From positions 1 through 24,413 of IMG/VR virus record IMGVR_UViG_3300030328_000770: a stretch of 24,413 nt of DNA; one strand, given 5' to 3'. The notes under the pieces are model-generated. The model saw nothing but the letters and a program-made list of their open reading frames with translations. It did not search any database and was not told the DNA's origin. The first letter of the stretch is position 1. Every line of letters starts with the position of its first letter. The stretch is from a virus. Both the position numbers and the translations under genes were made by a program. This document shows positions 18 to 16,787 of this stretch, piece by piece.

Positions 18-935
18 ATGAAAAAACCATCTAACAAAACTGCTTATTACACATTTGACTTTGATGATTTTGAAGGATTATCCTACTCACAAGGAGATTA
101 TGATTTTGAAAAAGCAAATCCAGAAAATGTAGAATTTATGAAAAAAATAGGAGAACCTTTAATTCCTATAGTAAAAGGTTTAGAAGAAACTAGTGGTATG
201 AATCTTATAGGAGATTTACAATTTCATTATGGGGGTAGGGATGGATTATACTACACGATAGGTAGTAGAGATATATCTGGAACACCTAGAGAAATGTTTT
301 TAAACAGATTAGACTATTTTGATGGTAGGGATCAGTCTACAGCAGATGGTGGTAATGTATATAGAAGCAGACGTTTTGGAGCTGATAAAGCAGGTATTGC
401 ACAAATGTATGAAGAACTTTTAGGTGAATTATCCTACATAGTAAAAAATAAAATTACAGATATGTCTGGGTACACAGGCAAAAAGTTAAATCTAGAAGAA
501 ACTAAAGCATTATTAGCTAAATCAAATATAACAGGAGTTTCTGGCAATTTAGGAATAAAGCAAGGTGGGAAGATTTCGCTTGACAAGGGCGGAGATGTAC
601 AGTATAATAAAGGTAATTATGGCTTTGTTAACAAAAAAGGCAAAGCTCCACCATCTGCAAGGGCAGATGATGTTCCTATGACTTTAAAAGAGGGAGATTT
701 CGTACTCTCTCAGCCTGCTGTAGCCCTTTATGGTGAAGACACTGTAAATCGCATGCTCTCAAGAGCTGCTACGAAAGCAGGCAAAAATTTAAAAGCTGGA
801 GGTAAAGTTCCAGTCAATGTACACAATGGTGAATACATTATACCAAAGAATTTAACAGAATATATAGGTCCTAATGTTCTCGAAACGATGAACAACAGGG
901 GTCTTATGTCAGTTGGTGAAAGACCCAACACTTAG
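18..935 (+). CDS. Phage structural protein with two DDVP/GEY-type motifs (5' end uncertain)
   Basis: 305 residues from the ATG at 18. I do not recognise the N-terminal two thirds, which is rich in Asp, Tyr and Gly. The C-terminal third carries ARADDVPMTLKEGDFVLSQP (about residues 216-235) followed by VNRMLSRAATKAG, and then a second degenerate copy, VPVNVHNGEYIIPKN (about 265-279), followed by VLETMNNRG. Such DD-[VI]-P...L-x-x-G-[ED]-[FY]-[VI] segments are, from memory, common in phage tail and tape-measure-type proteins, so a virion role is likely. The start is doubtful: AGG lies only one base before the ATG, and the frame stays open to base 3, so the true protein may begin before the window. 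It lies directly before the scaffold gene, where a portal or head-assembly gene would be expected. Confidence 0.75.
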   Translation: MKKPSNKTAYYTFDFDDFEGLSYSQGDYDFEKANPENVEFMKKIGEPLIPIVKGLEETSGMNLIGDLQFHYGGRDGLYYTIGSRDISGTPREMFLNRLDYFDGRDQSTADGGNVYRSRRFGADKAGIAQMYEELLGELSYIVKNKITDMSGYTGKKLNLEETKALLAKSNITGVSGNLGIKQGGKISLDKGGDVQYNKGNYGFVNKKGKAPPSARADDVPMTLKEGDFVLSQPAVALYGEDTVNRMLSRAATKAGKNLKAGGKVPVNVHNGEYIIPKNLTEYIGPNVLETMNNRGLMSVGERPNT

Positions 936-3989: not shown

Positions 3990-5105
3990 ATGGCTACATT
4001 TCTTACACTAGTAAATAACGTATTAACAGAATTAAATGAACCTACATTGGCTACTTCTGCAGATTTAACTTCTGCTTCAGCTACAGTAGGAATACAAACA
4101 ACAGTAAAAGAAAATGTAAATAAATCGATAAGGGATATAGCCACTTCAGAAGTAGAATGGTCTTATCTATATGCTTCAGGCACACAAGCTTTAACTGCTG
4201 GTATACAAGAGTATACAGTTACTACAGCAGCTTCTACAATAGATTGGGATAGTTTTGTTTTAGTACCTACAGAGTTATTAACTAATGGTGGGTTTACCAG
4301 TGACATAAGTAGTTGGACCGAATCAAACTCAGGTACTGGAGATGCTACATATTCTTCAGGTGCATTATCTTTAGCAGCAGGCTCTGGTACTAGTGCTGTA
4401 TATCAAGCACTATCTCTTACAAGAGGTAGAACATATATGGTTTCGTTTGCTATGAAAAATGCTTCTACTTCAGGTACAGCAATAAGTCCTAGTTTAGCAG
4501 TTTCAGTAGGAACAAGTGCTTTAGCTACAGACGTATCTACAGGCACATATACTTCTGCAGGAGGATCAAACGATGAAGGTGATCTTAGCTATCACAGTTT
4601 TACATTTGAAGCTTCTGCCACAGCACATTATTTAACAATTAAAAATTCAACTGCATCATCTACAGTATTAGTAGATAATGTTAGTGTAAAAGAAGATGTC
4701 CATCCTAAATCATTAAGATATTTAAATGAGGATGAATGGAGAGAAAGAATAGTTGGAACAGATAAAAATCAAAACCCTGACCACTTTGCAGAACCACAAC
4801 ATGTATACAGAACTGTTGCTTCTAGTTCAGCACTTACGTTTGGGGTCTCGCCTGTTCCAGATAAAAGCTCTTATACTGTGGAGTTTGATTATTATACTTC
4901 CCCAACAGACCTATCTGCGTCAAGTGATACGCCTAGTATACCGACTCGTTACCACGATCTGATAGTTAAAAGAGCTGCTTATTACACATTACTTACTCGA
5001 TCTGACCCACAGTTAGCTCAAGTATTTTTACAGGAATATAGCTTTGGTTTACAGAGAATGAGAACAGATTTGATAAATCGTAAAAATTATATGTTTGCAG
5101 TCTAA
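3990..5105 (+). CDS. Tail adaptor (T7 gp11-like tail tubular A) with inserted CBM-like domain
   Basis: 371 residues. The N-terminus (MATFLTLVNNVLTELNEPTL, then VNKSIRDIATSEVEWSYLY) and C-terminus (HPKSLRYLNEDEWRER, later PTRYHDLIVKRAAYYTLLTR and YSFGLQRMRTDL) form a helical podovirus tail adaptor that would ring the portal and seat the nozzle. Between residues about 94 and 237 lies an insertion with the hallmarks of a carbohydrate-binding jelly roll of the CBM_4_9 type: ELLTNGGFTSDISSW, YSSGALSL, a GRTYMVSFAMKN strand, HSFTFEA, and closing VLVDNVSVKE. Without it the protein would be about 229 residues, near the usual adaptor size. The stop overlaps the next ATG by one base (TAATG). Confidence 0.85.
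   Translation: MATFLTLVNNVLTELNEPTLATSADLTSASATVGIQTTVKENVNKSIRDIATSEVEWSYLYASGTQALTAGIQEYTVTTAASTIDWDSFVLVPTELLTNGGFTSDISSWTESNSGTGDATYSSGALSLAAGSGTSAVYQALSLTRGRTYMVSFAMKNASTSGTAISPSLAVSVGTSALATDVSTGTYTSAGGSNDEGDLSYHSFTFEASATAHYLTIKNSTASSTVLVDNVSVKEDVHPKSLRYLNEDEWRERIVGTDKNQNPDHFAEPQHVYRTVASSSALTFGVSPVPDKSSYTVEFDYYTSPTDLSASSDTPSIPTRYHDLIVKRAAYYTLLTRSDPQLAQVFLQEYSFGLQRMRTDLINRKNYMFAV
4269..4700 (+). other. Inserted carbohydrate-binding-like (CBM_4_9 type) domain in the tail adaptor
   Basis: Codes for residues about 94-237 of the adaptor. The order NGGF...SSW, SSGALSL, VYQALSL, GRTYMVSF, FTFEA, LTIKN, VLVDNVSV follows the strand order of CBM_4_9-like beta-sandwiches. Flanking segments WDSFVLV and HPKSLRYLN would join directly in an adaptor lacking the insert. 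The domain call is by pattern and no search was run. Confidence 0.68.
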
Positions 5106-6633: not shown

Positions 6634-9600
6634 ATGGCAGGTTATTCAGCGAGACAATCGAGTTTTACTACAGGAGATACAATAACAGCAGCTCATAGTA
6701 ATAATGAGTTTAATGCTATTTTAGCAGCTTTTCATGTATCTACTGGGCATACCCATGATGGTACTACAGCAGGCGATGGTGGACCCCTTTCAACACTATA
6801 CAGCAATGCTATCAGTATGGGTACAGGTGCAGACACAGATATAGCAATTACATTTAATGCTAACTCTAACGATGGTGTTATCACTTGGATGGAAGATGAA
6901 GATTATTTCCAGTTTTCTGATGACATATTAATTAATAGCACTGAAAAAATACAATTTAGAGATACTGCTCTTTATGTATATTCTTCTACAGACGGTCAAT
7001 TAGATGTAGTTGCAGATACTAAAATACAATTAACAGCTACAACAATAGGATTAAGTGGGGCTATTTCAGGAACTGGTATTGCAGATGAAGATGATATGTC
7101 TTCTAATTCAGCTACTAAACTTGCTACACAACAATCAATTAAAGCTTATGTAGATTCACAAGTAACAGCTCAAGATTTAGATGTTACCTCTGACAGTGGT
7201 ACTATAGCTATCGATTTAGATTCTGAAACCCTAACTGTAGCAGGTGGCACAGGTTTATCTTCTAGTGCTACTTCTAATACAGTAACATTAGCAATAGATA
7301 GTACAGTAACAACTCTTACAGGTTCACAAACTTTAACAAACAAAACTCTTACAAGCCCAGTATTAAATACTGGAATATCTGGTACTGCTGTATTAGATGA
7401 AGATGATATGTCTTCTAATTCAGCTACTAAATTAGCAACACAACAATCAATTAAAGCATACGTAGATTCAGAAGTAGGTGGTATAAGTTCTTCTTGGGTA
7501 TTAGAAGATGATGATGGAACAGAAGTAACTGTAGCTGCAGGTAAAGAAGTTAAGTTTATTGGTTCTGGTATTACAACAAACTGGACAGATACAGATAATG
7601 GAACAGATGGTGATCCTTATGATCTTACATTTACTGTAGATGCAGCACAGACAGGTATTACTTCCCTACTGGCTACGGATATTAAAATTGGTGAAGATGA
7701 CGAAACAAAAATAGATTTTGAAACAGCTAACGAAATACATTTCTATGCTAATAATACAGAACAAGTATATTTAGCTGATAATATATTTGGTCCACAATCG
7801 GATAGTGATGTTGATCTAGGCACAACAGGCGTTAGATGGAAAGATGCCTATATAGATACAATAACAACTACAGGTGCTATAAGTGTAGGCGGTGATCTTA
7901 CAGTAAACGGAACTACAACAACTGTAAACTCAACTACAGTAACTATAGATGATCCTATCTTTACATTAGGTGGAGACTCAGCCCCTGGTTCTGATGATAA
8001 TAAAGACAGAGGTATTGAATTTAGATATCATAATGGTACAGCAGCTAAAGTAGGCTTTTTTGGTTGGGATGATTCAGCTACTGCATTTACATTTATTCCT
8101 GATGCTTCTAACTCTTCAGAAGTATTTAGTGGTACAGTAGGTAATGCTGTTTTTGGCAATATTACAGGTACACTACAGACTGCTGCACAAACAAACATAA
8201 CTTCAGTAGGTGCTTTAGACGGAGGTTCTATAACTTCAGGATTTGGCACTATAGATACAGGCTCCTCTACGATAACTACTACAGGTTTAATATCTGGTGG
8301 TTCTTTAGATATAGATGATGTATTAATTAATGGAACAACTATAGGTCACACAGATGATACAGACCTAATGACATTATCAAATGGTGGTTTGGTGGTAGCA
8401 GGAACTTTAGAAGCTACAGGAAATATAACAGGTACTTTAGCTACAGCAGCACAAACAAATATAACATCTTTAGGAACATTAAGCACATTAACTGTAGATA
8501 ATGTTATTATTAACGGAACTACTATAGGTCACACAGACGACACAGATTTAATGACTTTAGCTTCTGGCGGATTAACTGTAGCAGGTACTATAGAAGGTAC
8601 TACAATTACTGCTTCTACTGCTTTAGTTCCTGATGCTTCAGGTGGTGCAGACTTAGGTAGCACATCTCTTGAGTGGGGTGATGTTTATATTGCTGACGAT
8701 AAGAAACTTTATCTTGGCTCAGATCAAAACTTTAGTATTGAATATGACGAAGACGGAAATGATACTACAGCCGTAGTAGCTGCAGGTGGTGTTAGTATGG
8801 CACCTCATGGTTCTAGTGCAGGAAATGGTACAGAATTAAGATTCCAAGAGTTAGCAGCTAATGGTGCAAATTATGTAGGCTTTAAAGCTCCAGACGCTAT
8901 AGCTGCAAACAAGGTATTTGTATTGCCTAATGCTGATGGTAGTGCAAACCAAGTTCTTAAAACAGATGGTTCTTTAGGATTAGGTTGGGTAGATCAAGCA
9001 GGTGGTGGAGAAGTAGACCTAGTAGCTGATGGTGCTATAGCTGCTCAAAAGCCAGTTGTATTAACTGGTGCAGGTAAAGCGGCTCAAGTTAAAGAAACAA
9101 CAACAATAGCTTCTACTCCCACTGTAAAAAGTGTAACAACAATGGATGATTCTGATACTGCTTCAGTAGCAGTAAATACTGCATATGAATCAAATTCAGG
9201 TGCGTTTGTTATGGTATATAAAGATACTAGTGGTAGTAGTTATGGAACAGCAGTTGCAGGTACATGGTCTGATGGCACTATGACTTGGGGAACACCTGTT
9301 GTATTTGAATCAAGTGCAATAGATGACCAACCGCATATATGTTCAGGTGGTAATAGAGTTCATGTTACTTACAGAGCTTCTGATGGTAAATCAGGCATAA
9401 GGAGTGCATCTATATCAGGAACAACTTTATCTTTTGCCGCAGAGACAGTGTGGGGAGATGCTCCTTCAGCAGCTAGTGGAGGTAGGCAAGAAGTTACAGG
9501 CACTATGGATAATATGACTGCTGTATATGACACTGGCTCTAATAGAATAGTTACATTTTATGCTGATGATGGTAATAGCCTCTACGGAACAGCAGTTGTT

Positions 9601-12600
9601 TCTGTAATCAATAATGCCACTACAGGAGCAATAACTTTTGGTACTCCTGTTGTATTTAATTCTGCTTATACAGTAATGCTTCCAGGACATGGATCAGCCT
9701 ATGATGCTAATGCAGATAGGGTTGTTGTGTGCTATAGAGATCAAGGAGATTCTAACAAAGGAAAAGCTATAGTAGGTCAAGTTACAGCAGGCACTAATGC
9801 AATAAGTTTTGGAACAGAAGTAGAATTTAGTGGTGGTTCAGCTATTAACCATGCAAGTATTGTAGAAGACCCAAATACAGATAGAGTTGCTGTATTTTAT
9901 GCTGATTCTGGTAATAGTGAAGGTAGAGGTGTTGTTGGAACTGTTACAGCAGGCACTAACGCAATAGCCTTTGGTAGTGCTAGTGCATTTGAGTCAACTG
10001 CAGTAACTTCAGATTCAGGAGTTTATGGTCGTTCTTTAGCTTCAGCTTATGAGCCAGATACTAATAAAATACTTGTTGTATATAATGATGGATCAACTAA
10101 TGGTCAAGCACGAGTAGCGACAGTTACAGGGGGAACAACTAATACAATAGCATATGGAACTGAAGCAGAATGGACTAGTAATAATGTAGATTATCCTAGT
10201 GTAGCATATGACACAGAATATAATAAATTTGTTATTGCATATTCAGATAAAGATGATTCTACTAAAGGTAAAGTTATTAGTGCTACCATAAGTGGAACAA
10301 GCATAACTTTTGAAAATATTACAACATTTGCTGCAGATACTAATACTAGATTTAGTGCAGTCTTTGATCCTGTATCAAGACATACTGTTATTGCACATCG
10401 AAATGGAAGTAATTCAAGACTTGATCTTAATTTTATAAGAACACATCAAACTACTCCTAACGAATCTAGTTTATCCAATGCTGATGGTGGAACAGGTGCT
10501 CCGAATTTTGTAAATGCTATATATGATCCAGATAATAAAAAAGTAATTATAATTTATAAGGCAGATACTGATGCAGACCTTAGTCAGCTTGTAATACATC
10601 CAGACACTGGAAGTACTTCACTGGGAAATCATTGTATTTATGATACTTCAACTAATTATGTATTAATATCATCATCAACAGGTCCTAACCAAAATGTATA
10701 TATTTATCCTATATACCATGATACAAGCGATGGTACATATACTGTAGGTACACATTCAAAGGTACGTTCAGGTAATCTAGTATCACACAGAGGAGATTTT
10801 ATTTTTGATCCAGATACAAACAGAGGCATATTTGGTAATATGGACAGTTCTAATTCAGATCGCCCAACAGCTCATGTTATTCAATCAGGAGGAACTGCTG
10901 CAGCCCCAACAGTAACTATAGGAGCAGCGTCTGTAGTAGAAACAGATGGTTGTCAAATTGTGTCTATGTGCTACGATACAACAAATAATAAAGTATTTTT
11001 TGCTTATGATAATAGTACTGACACAGAAACAAAAGGAGCTATAGGTACTGTAACAGGAGGAGGAACTAATACTATTGCTTTTGCAGGTATTGCACAAATA
11101 AGAGATACAAATACTGGAGATGCTTTTGATGTAGAATTTGATCAAGTAGGAGAAAAAATTATACATCTATATAGAGATGAAGACGATGGTAATGATTTAA
11201 CTTATCAAGTAATTACGCCTGGAGCTTCTTCTTTCTCTGTTAGTAGTGCTACAGAAATATCAGCAAATGATAATAGATTACAAGGTCGTTCTATGTCTTT
11301 CGGTGCTAGTAAAGGTATTTTAGCAGGTCTATATGATGCAGGAAATTCTAATAAAGTATCTTATACTTCATTTTATTTCTCATCCTCTACAACATCAAAT
11401 CTAGACAATGGTAATTACTTAGGAGTAGCTGCCGCATCTATATCAGACACAGCCACAGGTACTATAGTAATACCTGGAGGTATAAGTGAAGGGCACTCTT
11501 CGCTTACTATAGGTAATCATTATTTCACAAATGGTAATGGTGTAGTAGGTTTAGTAGGCAATACTACAGGCGAACAATATTTAGGTAAAGCAATATCAGC
11601 AACTAAAATACAATTACTAGAAAATGAAGGTTATTTATATGGTACTGCAGAAGGTGCTATTACCGCAGGTAAACCAGTACAAGTAGACAGTGATGGTGAA
11701 TTTTCTATGATTGCAGAAAGTTCAACAAGTTATTCTTTTGCTCAAGGTTCTTCTCTTCAAATATCTGTAGGAACTAATTTAACAGGGGATATAGCTTATA
11801 ATACAAATACAGATAAAATGTGTGTAGCACAGATAGATAGTGGTACAGGTAAATTATCTATACATCATGGTACAGTAAATGGTGGAACTACTAATACAGT
11901 TACTTGGGGTTCTACTGATGCAGTAACAAGTGTAGGTTCAGGCGACAATGTAAAAATAGCATATGATCCTGTAAGTTATAAAACATTCTGTGGTTTTTAT
12001 AATGGTAGCCAAGGAGAAGGATTTATATTTACAAACAGTTCAGGAACTAGTAGCACCGTAGGAACTAGCAGTAATTTTTATAGTAGTGATCCTTCTGGAG
12101 TAGACGCAGTTAATGTAGGAGAAGATAAATGGGTAGTTGCATATCAAGGAGGTAGTAGTTATCCTAAATGTAGAGTAGTATCAGCGTCAGGAAATACAAT
12201 AAGTTATGGTACAGAAGTAACTATAAATAGTAGTGCTTGTAATACTAGTGATGGTACTGCTTCAGATACAAATATTGCTATGACTTATGATACCGCAAGT
12301 TCACAAGTAGTAGTATTTTATACTGTAAGTAGTAGTTTATATGTTAAAGTTGGTACTGTTAGTGGCACAGACATTAGTTTTGGAACTGGGTTGCAATTAA
12401 CTTCTGGAGGAGCAACTAACCCTCACCCTGGCAGTGCAACATATGTTCCTTCAAAAGATGTACATGTATGTGCTTTTGAATGGAGCAATGATGGTTATGC
12501 GATTGTTGTTAAAACTAGTGGTTCAGGAACTGATGCTACAGTAGTAAATGCTTCAGGCACATCGCCTGCAAACTCTGCTGTAATATTTGATAGTCAAGAT

Positions 12601-13128
12601 TCTTTAAAATCAAATGTGTTTACCGCTTACGAAAGCACACCTGTTATAGTATATAGTGATGACAGCGTAGATATTAATAGTATAGCTGTAAGTATAGATG
12701 GTACAACACCTACAATGGGAACAGACAGAGCCATAGAAACAACTACTTCTCACAGCACTATAGCAGGAGCGTATGATCCTGATACTAAACGAGCAGTTAT
12801 AATATTTAAAGAAAATAGTAACAATGACCTATATTATCAAGTTGTTACTATAGAAGGAACTGAAACAACTACAAATATGGCAACAGATGGAGAAAGCTAT
12901 CTAGGCATAGCTACAAAAACAGTTGCAAATGATGCTCAAGCTGAAGTAGCAACATTTGGGCAAATTGATGCTCAACAAAGTAGTCTTACCGCAGGGCAAA
13001 AATATTTTGTACAGTCAGACGGTAGTTTGGCTACAAGTGCAGATACTTCAGTACCAGGTTATTCAGGTACTGTGACAACAGTAGCAGGAAAAGCATTATC
13101 TGCTACAAAATTATTAATTAGTGAATAA
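6634..13128 (+). CDS. Giant tail fibre with shaft repeats and about 21 propeller blades
   Basis: 2164 residues, about four times T7 gp17. Residues 1-60 contain FTTGDTITAAHSNNEFNAIL and GHTHDGTTAGDGG, the adaptor head typical of marine phage fibres. Residues about 60-790 are a Thr/Ser/Asp/Gly-rich shaft with repeated motifs (two 25-residue copies beginning DEDDMSSNSATK, two copies of INGTTIGHTDDTDLMTL). From about 844 to 1585 I count 14 blade-like repeats of about 50 residues built on (A)-Y-D-x-x-[TS]-[NS]-[KR]-hydrophobic strand, then TV(T/S)GGTN-I-FGT. From about 1700 to 2080 I count 7 more. Each propeller region is bracketed by a matching split beta domain (GAI-A-G/Q-KPV at the start; YLG[IV]A and GKA[IL]SATK at the end). 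The SD GGAG precedes the ATG. Receptor binding is inferred; no catalytic motif is seen. Confidence 0.88.
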   Translation: MAGYSARQSSFTTGDTITAAHSNNEFNAILAAFHVSTGHTHDGTTAGDGGPLSTLYSNAISMGTGADTDIAITFNANSNDGVITWMEDEDYFQFSDDILINSTEKIQFRDTALYVYSSTDGQLDVVADTKIQLTATTIGLSGAISGTGIADEDDMSSNSATKLATQQSIKAYVDSQVTAQDLDVTSDSGTIAIDLDSETLTVAGGTGLSSSATSNTVTLAIDSTVTTLTGSQTLTNKTLTSPVLNTGISGTAVLDEDDMSSNSATKLATQQSIKAYVDSEVGGISSSWVLEDDDGTEVTVAAGKEVKFIGSGITTNWTDTDNGTDGDPYDLTFTVDAAQTGITSLLATDIKIGEDDETKIDFETANEIHFYANNTEQVYLADNIFGPQSDSDVDLGTTGVRWKDAYIDTITTTGAISVGGDLTVNGTTTTVNSTTVTIDDPIFTLGGDSAPGSDDNKDRGIEFRYHNGTAAKVGFFGWDDSATAFTFIPDASNSSEVFSGTVGNAVFGNITGTLQTAAQTNITSVGALDGGSITSGFGTIDTGSSTITTTGLISGGSLDIDDVLINGTTIGHTDDTDLMTLSNGGLVVAGTLEATGNITGTLATAAQTNITSLGTLSTLTVDNVIINGTTIGHTDDTDLMTLASGGLTVAGTIEGTTITASTALVPDASGGADLGSTSLEWGDVYIADDKKLYLGSDQNFSIEYDEDGNDTTAVVAAGGVSMAPHGSSAGNGTELRFQELAANGANYVGFKAPDAIAANKVFVLPNADGSANQVLKTDGSLGLGWVDQAGGGEVDLVADGAIAAQKPVVLTGAGKAAQVKETTTIASTPTVKSVTTMDDSDTASVAVNTAYESNSGAFVMVYKDTSGSSYGTAVAGTWSDGTMTWGTPVVFESSAIDDQPHICSGGNRVHVTYRASDGKSGIRSASISGTTLSFAAETVWGDAPSAASGGRQEVTGTMDNMTAVYDTGSNRIVTFYADDGNSLYGTAVVSVINNATTGAITFGTPVVFNSAYTVMLPGHGSAYDANADRVVVCYRDQGDSNKGKAIVGQVTAGTNAISFGTEVEFSGGSAINHASIVEDPNTDRVAVFYADSGNSEGRGVVGTVTAGTNAIAFGSASAFESTAVTSDSGVYGRSLASAYEPDTNKILVVYNDGSTNGQARVATVTGGTTNTIAYGTEAEWTSNNVDYPSVAYDTEYNKFVIAYSDKDDSTKGKVISATISGTSITFENITTFAADTNTRFSAVFDPVSRHTVIAHRNGSNSRLDLNFIRTHQTTPNESSLSNADGGTGAPNFVNAIYDPDNKKVIIIYKADTDADLSQLVIHPDTGSTSLGNHCIYDTSTNYVLISSSTGPNQNVYIYPIYHDTSDGTYTVGTHSKVRSGNLVSHRGDFIFDPDTNRGIFGNMDSSNSDRPTAHVIQSGGTAAAPTVTIGAASVVETDGCQIVSMCYDTTNNKVFFAYDNSTDTETKGAIGTVTGGGTNTIAFAGIAQIRDTNTGDAFDVEFDQVGEKIIHLYRDEDDGNDLTYQVITPGASSFSVSSATEISANDNRLQGRSMSFGASKGILAGLYDAGNSNKVSYTSFYFSSSTTSNLDNGNYLGVAAASISDTATGTIVIPGGISEGHSSLTIGNHYFTNGNGVVGLVGNTTGEQYLGKAISATKIQLLENEGYLYGTAEGAITAGKPVQVDSDGEFSMIAESSTSYSFAQGSSLQISVGTNLTGDIAYNTNTDKMCVAQIDSGTGKLSIHHGTVNGGTTNTVTWGSTDAVTSVGSGDNVKIAYDPVSYKTFCGFYNGSQGEGFIFTNSSGTSSTVGTSSNFYSSDPSGVDAVNVGEDKWVVAYQGGSSYPKCRVVSASGNTISYGTEVTINSSACNTSDGTASDTNIAMTYDTASSQVVVFYTVSSSLYVKVGTVSGTDISFGTGLQLTSGGATNPHPGSATYVPSKDVHVCAFEWSNDGYAIVVKTSGSGTDATVVNASGTSPANSAVIFDSQDSLKSNVFTAYESTPVIVYSDDSVDINSIAVSIDGTTPTMGTDRAIETTTSHSTIAGAYDPDTKRAVIIFKENSNNDLYYQVVTIEGTETTTNMATDGESYLGIATKTVANDAQAEVATFGQIDAQQSSLTAGQKYFVQSDGSLATSADTSVPGYSGTVTTVAGKALSATKLLISE
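7084..7158 (+). repeat. Fibre shaft repeat, copy 1
   Basis: Codes for the 25-residue segment starting DEDDMSSNSATK and ending IKAYVDS (residues 151-175). The identical amino-acid sequence recurs at 7396-7470, while the DNA differs at some synonymous sites. Confidence 0.85.
7396..7470 (+). repeat. Fibre shaft repeat, copy 2
   Basis: Second copy (residues 255-279) of the DEDDMSSNSATK...IKAYVDS segment, 104 residues after the first. Spacing and identity suggest a duplicated shaft module. Confidence 0.85.
9010..11625 (+). repeat. Fibre module A: split beta domain enclosing about 14 propeller blades
   Basis: Residues about 793-1664. It opens with DLVADGAIAAQKPVVLTGAG and ends with NYLGVAAAS, SLTIGNHYFTNGNGVVG and YLGKAISATKIQLLE. 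In between are about 14 blades of about 50 residues, many with YD-P/T-x-TN-[KR] followed by a hydrophobic strand and a GTVT-GTN-I-FG turn. Fourteen blades would fit two seven-bladed propellers. The blade count is by eye. Confidence 0.65.
11626..13128 (+). repeat. Fibre module B: split beta domain enclosing about 7 propeller blades
   Basis: Residues about 1665-2164. It repeats the module A plan: an opening with GAITAGKPVQVDSDG, about seven blades, then SYLGIATKTV, SLTAGQKYFVQSDGSL and GKALSATKLLISE at the C-terminus. Its shorter propeller section suggests it corresponds to half of module A. Confidence 0.65.
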
Positions 13129-13138
13129 GGAGTAAACA

Positions 13139-13594
13139 ATGCAAACAATAGTAAGAAAAGATACCAATGTAAGTCTTTATTATTATCCAGATAGTAAAAC
13201 TATAGATATTGGTTCTACTTCAACAACAGTAAGTGATGGCGGCACACCTGAATTAATTATTGCAGATTGCGATTCAAGCAATGTAACATTACATACAGGC
13301 GTAGATGCACAATCTACTTGGTGGGGTTGGAAATACAAACATGATGGTTCTTCATGGTCAGCTAATGCAGATTATAAAGGTAGTAATAACCTTACATCTG
13401 ATATTAATGACTCTGTAACAACTATTCCTGTTAAAAATTCTAATCCATTTACTGCATCTGGCACTGTACAGATAGGTGATGAAAAAATTACTTATACTGG
13501 AGTAGACGGAACAAATCTTACAGGTTGCACTAGAGGAGCTGCATCAACAAGTGCTGCAAGTCATTCTAGTCGTGATGCTGTAGAACAAATATAA
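13139..13594 (+). CDS. Small tail/fibre-associated beta protein
   Basis: 151 residues with SD AAGGAG before the ATG. The N-terminal half has WWGWKYKHDGSSWSANADYK. The C-terminal half holds a segment seen, from memory, in many phage tail proteins: SVTTIPVKNSNPF, then GTVQIGDEKITYTGVDG and LTGCTRGAASTSAASHSS. In such proteins this segment forms a small beta domain that ends an otherwise variable polypeptide. It lies 10 bases after the giant fibre gene, so a fibre-tip, fibre-chaperone or tail-attached role is plausible. No enzyme motif is seen. The annotation as a real gene is firm and the function is weak. Confidence 0.72.
   Translation: MQTIVRKDTNVSLYYYPDSKTIDIGSTSTTVSDGGTPELIIADCDSSNVTLHTGVDAQSTWWGWKYKHDGSSWSANADYKGSNNLTSDINDSVTTIPVKNSNPFTASGTVQIGDEKITYTGVDGTNLTGCTRGAASTSAASHSSRDAVEQI

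Positions 13595-13778: not shown

Positions 13779-16787
<3,009 letters not shown>

Follow-up and report, generated by a model that had tools for sequence, protein, structure and literature searches.

The stretch of DNA analysed here (24,413 nucleotides, hereafter the window) is, judging from its proteins, part of the genome of a marine podovirus of the HMO-2011 type. The assignment follows from the capsid protein, which shares 53% identity with its counterpart in pelagiphage HTVC033P and 44% with the one in HMO-2011; known genomes of this group measure about 52.7-54.9 kb (PMC9038755). The structural genes lie in the same order as in HTVC033P: capsid, tail structure, and fibre. The gene ahead of the fibre is of the nozzle type (PHROG 5107 together with head-closure matches). 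The annotated HTVC033P tail fibre matches the window fibre over its first residues and lacks the propeller modules. The fibre gene comprises the following elements:

6634..13128, + strand: tail fibre gene (2164 aa), an open reading frame after the nozzle-type gene, with an N-terminus common to the annotated HTVC033P fibre
6634..7065, + strand: conserved N-terminal anchor (aa 1-144), 81-85% identical among close relatives with differing C-termini
7066..9018, + strand: putative stem (aa 145-795), repeat-rich in sequence and partly exchanged between relatives
9019..9102, + strand: module 1, N half of the putative split cement-type barrel (aa 796-823), with bracket motif; L086 and L090 have this socket naturally empty
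9103..9465, + strand: module 1, predicted ring A, first part, blades 1-2 (~aa 824-944), matching blades 1-2 of seven-blade relatives; VIA range 51..789
9466..10617, + strand: module 1, ring B, blades 3-9 (~aa 945-1328), likely a complete nested propeller; VIA range 152..530; missing in seven-blade relatives; aligns end to end with standalone propellers
10618..11400, + strand: module 1, predicted ring A, second part, blades 10-14 (~aa 1329-1589), matching blades 3-7 of seven-blade relatives
11401..11619, + strand: module 1, C half of the putative split barrel (aa 1590-1662), with bracket motifs; 73-90% identity in relatives
11635..11724, + strand: module 2, N half of the putative split barrel (aa 1668-1697), with bracket motif; spliced bracket matches PF09956
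11725..12885, + strand: module 2, predicted propeller of 7 blades (aa 1698-2084); AF2 pLDDT 80; VIA Z 32.2 to YncE
12886..13125, + strand: module 2, C half of the putative split barrel (aa 2085-2164), with bracket motifs; 68-96% identity in relatives, against 27-77% for the ring

Other window genes carry features of their own. An SU10-type adaptor is encoded at 3990-5105 (PF24175, aa 236-359); ahead of that domain lies a carbohydrate-binding-like stretch, aa 95-233 (CBM_4_9 and DUF642, both below cutoff). After the fibre, 13139-13594 encodes a 151-aa protein; over its C-terminal half it shares 47% identity with a portion of 'tail tube B' from the Skadi pelagiphages. The 1001-aa open reading frame at 13782-16787 contains tandem Gly-Thr (29 copies of TACTGG) and Gly-Asp-Ser repeats at 14129-14405.

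A preliminary description of this sequence held that the fibre C-terminus consists of two modules sharing the same bracket. The bracket motifs are present at both: aa 800-1658 in module 1 (GAIAAQKPV at 800, YLGVA at 1595, SLTIGNHYF at 1623, and GKAISATK at 1651) and aa 1674-2159 in module 2 (GAITAGKPV at 1674, YLGIA at 2089, SLTAGQKYF at 2117, and GKALSATK at 2152). Moreover, the brackets align across relatives. The further proposal, that a propeller is inserted into a split beta domain, is supported, and the domain can be given a name. When the propeller was removed by hand, the spliced module 2 bracket scored 24.3 bits against PF09956 (phage cement protein, formerly DUF2190), a margin of 0.3 bits over the Pfam gathering cutoff of 24. 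The spliced brackets of L018 module 2 and of L004 scored 27.6 and 28.4 against the same cutoff, and the window module 1 bracket scored 11.5, below it. Because the module 2 bracket reaches PF09956 without its insert, the split domain is named a cement-type barrel, its chain apparently interrupted by the inserted propeller. (The term "cement protein" is avoided because the domain is encoded in the fibre gene; capsid decoration, which characterizes PF09956 cement proteins, does not apply here.) This identification draws on sequence, because the barrel parts of both AF2 models are of low confidence, with module 1 barrel pLDDT under 50. An eight-row bracket alignment was too diverse for scanning.

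Nature also provides the uninterrupted form. In L086 and L090, the module 1 socket reads ..GKAKEVAET-AGES-NLDNGNYLG.., at a position where other relatives hold ~430 or 795 residues; these two natural sockets have no Pfam match. Empty cement-type domains also lie at the C-terminus of L097 (1985-2109) and L108 (1940-2067), each after a filled module, and score 23.4 and 24.7 against PF09956. In L027 (6569-10996) and its 76% relative L119, a propeller splits the barrel at a different loop, between GVNSNQTDL and GVDAGTNYF. Standalone proteins of L110 and L112 contain two rings with a YIG remnant between them; we read this as a possible single barrel with a propeller in each of two loops.

The preliminary description counted about 14 and 7 blade repeats between the brackets, and the counts agree. 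A blade HMM built from 21 blades finds 14 in module 1 (aa 846-1589) and 7 in module 2 (aa 1717-2087); domain scores range from 13 to 58 bits. When the region was shuffled 200 times, a single sub-threshold match appeared, at 1.3 bits. That HMM was trained on the window's own 21 blades, and the family-wide count is the stronger, external check. Among 155 distinct closed family open reading frames, 7 blade matches occur in 75, 8 in 27, 13 in 6, 14 in 30, and 15 in 11; the remaining 6 have at most five, and counts of 9-12 are absent. (Those with 8 matches, as we read them, mostly represent 7 blades plus an N-terminal closing strand.)

Structure prediction renders both modules as propellers. The module 2 AF2 model (pLDDT 80, pTM 0.79) aligns by VIA-align with 303 of YncE's 322 residues (Z 32.2, rmsd 2.4), and the seven-blade ring fold recurs at Z 30-32 over ~300 residues in module 2 and in each module 1 ring. 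As regards Velcro closure, in which an N-terminal strand would complete the last blade, blades 9, 14, and 21 are short and have no fourth strand; the strand before blade 3 is predicted at pLDDT under 50. That modules 1 and 2 form complete seven-bladed propellers, three in all as originally supposed, is well supported by the repeat sequences and the models; no predicted fold was without propellers. Among sequence families, none for propellers in Pfam, PHROGs, or NCBIfam was reached by the modules, and matches to Lipocalin, NigD_N, and Rhodanese fell below cutoff and were ignored. A PDB sequence search returned nothing significant (best profile match: the WD40 protein Sof1, E 0.075), and a BFVD Foldseek search with the whole 875-aa module 1 model returned mostly unnamed proteins at low TM-scores.

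How are the fourteen blades of module 1 arranged? In a sequential tandem, blades 1-7 and 8-14 would form two successive rings within the barrel, and the seven-blade relatives would be hybrids generated by in-register recombination between the rings. Double propellers of this tandem kind are frequent among other proteins, Utp4 being an example (PMC5456268). The module 1 model, however, suggests that blades 3-9 form a ring nested within a ring of blades 1, 2, and 10-14. YncE aligns with model residues 152..530 (aa 945-1323, blades 3-9) over 306 residues (Z 31.0, rmsd 2.6); the PLL2 lectin aligns with residues 51..789 over 315 of 339 (Z 30.3, rmsd 2.7). The latter range uses only ~315 residues, those of blades 1, 2, and 10-14, and is interleaved with the former, contrary to the tandem arrangement. 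In favour of the tandem, confidence in the model is moderate (pLDDT 74.5, pTM 0.54, with pLDDT under 50 at the ring B entry). Its alignment comprised six rows, two of them without ring B, which might bias the model; standalone fourteen-bladed proteins were left out, and their addition misaligned the middle.

Sequence comparisons point the same way. In the one-ring module 1 of L018, L092, and L093, blades 1-2 correspond to blades 1-2 of the window, and the final four or five to window blades 10/11-14. Summed over offsets, 25 of 28 comparisons favour an insertion after blade 2 or 3 and none favours the sequential offsets, with an inferred insertion point that varies between pairs and with poor discrimination by the distant L088 and L089. 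The match to blades 1-2 and 10-14 does not by itself decide the question, since a phase-preserving crossover between sequential rings could yield the same pattern. Blade lengths speak against that alternative: in all four fourteen-bladed modules, blade 9 is 37-39 aa (closing blades are 41-48) and blade 7, which the tandem would have close the first ring, is full-length at 52-57. So does phase. Against 68 standalone single-ring proteins, ring 3-9 is best unrotated in 31-42 and ring 1, 2, 10-14 in 20-32, but rings 1-7 and 8-14 in only 6-13 and 7-18, where chance predicts ~10. (In the window itself frame 2-8 scores 36 versus 31 for frame 3-9; frame 3-9 is best in the other three fourteen-bladed modules.) The more distant L097 and L108/L114 fibres also contain homologues of both blade groups, 1-2 and 10-14, with 383-419 residues between them. 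Ring B may have arisen as a copy of ring A: the two compare best at rotation 0 (339 versus 262-317), although this signal is weak.

Because the VIA ranges, the seven-blade relatives, the short closing blade 9, and the phase test agree, ring 3-9 is likely nested in ring 1, 2, 10-14, giving a predicted order of barrel, propeller, propeller; the sequential tandem is unlikely. The expected grouping of blades into sevens stood, but a simple split into 1-7 and 8-14 did not. The comparisons speak against blades 1-7 as ring 1 and 8-14 as ring 2, a result that a module 1 model with pTM 0.54 keeps short of final. The nesting, along with the series of zero, one, and two rings, is the surprising part.

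This series comes from the relatives, which differ in the number of rings in module 1. Module 1 is empty in L086 and L090; holds one ring in L018, L083, L087, L088, L089, L092, L093, and L096; and holds two in the window, L084, L085, and L095. In module 2, by contrast, each relative examined carries a single ring. The portrayal of this module in the preliminary description as a shortened or half copy of module 1 is thus not borne out: module 1 is the one that varies, and its rings resemble that of module 2 only weakly. Gain and loss in whole-propeller steps is well supported by these 0/7/14 alleles.

The rings also change independently while the brackets stay conserved. L018 and L083 are 71% identical in ring A and 32% in the module 2 ring; the window and L083 are 73% identical in the module 2 ring and 47% in ring A; L087 and L089 are 81% identical in the module 2 ring and 33% in ring A. 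Across relatives, bracket identity is 68-99%. We read this pattern of rings and brackets as probable recombination at the conserved brackets. Phages with nearly the same capsid differ in their tips: L003 (on the same contig as L095; capsid 99% identical to the window) has a 14+7 tip with a module 2 ring at 27% identity; L004/L060 (99%) have a single-propeller tip; L018 (94%) has a 7+7 tip; and within the 90-97% group, L010, L020, and L044 have tips without propellers and L056 a glycine-rich tip.

Beyond these relatives, a DNA search in phages gave no match, and a protein search of phages gave Marine virus AG-345-O18 as the sole match; Lentibacter phage ICBM2 was added when a relative's module served as query. 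A search of genome contigs with the C bracket found no relative. In ICBM2, a cultured phage, the hypothetical protein related to the propeller family (AYP28108; L117 4779-6326) is encoded beside genes that carry a tail assembly chaperone annotation. Matches to a standalone bracket-plus-propeller protein occur in about 100 marine viral contigs; in several of these, such genes, of 7 or 14 blades, lie in tandem (L110 1800-9774; L169, L173, and others).

Together, these observations suggest a general model in which the fibre C-terminus is a receptor-binding tip of two sockets carrying exchangeable propeller cassettes. The N-terminal anchor and stem would hold the fibre, and the conserved barrels together with the anchor would keep it assembled. 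Each socket would be a small cement-type barrel, broken by the insertion of a seven-bladed propeller. Since a closed ring has its two ends near each other, the fold that hosts it could acquire or lose an entire propeller and stay intact. The diversified propeller surfaces would then bind cell-surface structures, most likely glycans. Such a two-socket tip with one nested ring is, in our estimation, quite probably the best explanation. Receptor binding by the tip is suggested by its position, by its variable inserts within a conserved frame, by tip swapping among phages with near-identical capsids, and by the propellers of phages phi11 and phiKZ, which have been proposed as receptor binders. A glycan ligand is a guess from fold likeness to the PLL lectins.

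Two other functions were considered. The tip might act as an enzyme, polysaccharide-degrading or otherwise, and not simply bind: the VIA lists for both modules include propeller enzymes, for example a rhamnose-glucuronate lyase, at Z values (27-28) near those of the lectins. Yet no enzyme family in Pfam, NCBIfam, or PHROGs reaches cutoff, and the same socket is filled by rings down to 27-35% identity, as would be expected of a variable binding surface more than of a conserved active site; an enzymatic role is accordingly improbable. Slightly more improbable still is a role for the propellers mainly as spacer, shield, or structural mass, with receptor specificity residing elsewhere. Relatives with empty sockets or zero propellers do exist, and so propellers are not essential to every member, but diversified rings between conserved brackets, replaced independently under near-identical capsids, form the pattern of a recognition surface.

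The receptor-binding tip with exchangeable cassettes has wider implications. Phages with near-identical capsids that differ by whole propellers constitute a ready natural experiment on how binding surfaces are gained and swapped among marine phages of an abundant group, and relatives with none, one, or two propellers suggest a plug-in route to changing what a phage grips. Protein architectures in which a full propeller is nested between the inner blades of a second one would be unusual. We consider it fairly likely, with somewhat less assurance than for the tip as a whole, that this fibre tip grows by nesting: a propeller between the inner blades of a propeller inside a split cement barrel, with alleles of zero, one, or two rings, independently exchanged propellers, and conserved sockets, in a propeller family that lies outside Pfam, PHROGs, and NCBIfam and is widespread in marine viral contigs.

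The window tip would be a variant of known phage propeller receptor-binding tips, with the nesting and the natural ring series as its new features. The receptor-binding protein of Staphylococcus phage phi11 likewise has a propeller after a stem, with a cavity that could take GlcNAc (PMC4901313). Unlike the window fibre, it has a single five-bladed propeller per chain, neither inserted into a cement barrel nor nested. The phiKZ protein gp131C (4GBF) is closer in blade number: its seven-bladed C-terminal domain has been proposed as receptor-binding (cited in PMC4901313). It differs in having a single propeller, with no bracket or nesting described in the passages that cite it.

Other systems resemble individual elements. 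Phage cement proteins (PF09956) share the Pfam model that the spliced fibre brackets match, but reside on the capsid, whereas here the barrel is apparently split by a propeller and lies in a tail fibre. The crAss001 muzzle protein gp44 (PMC10172136) carries an Ig-like insert in the muzzle; here the insert is a predicted propeller, in the fibre tip. The Photorhabdus lectins PLL and PHL are similar seven-bladed propellers (VIA Z 27-30 for both modules), a likeness of fold only, at 8-12% identity. For a propeller nested between inner blades, the literature searched holds no clear precedent except the single-strand enclosure in Utp4 (PMC5456268), where two seven-bladed rings lie on one chain and an N-terminal strand completes ring 2, so that ring 1 is formally enclosed. 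There, a single strand precedes the enclosed ring; in window module 1, two whole blades would precede it and five would follow.
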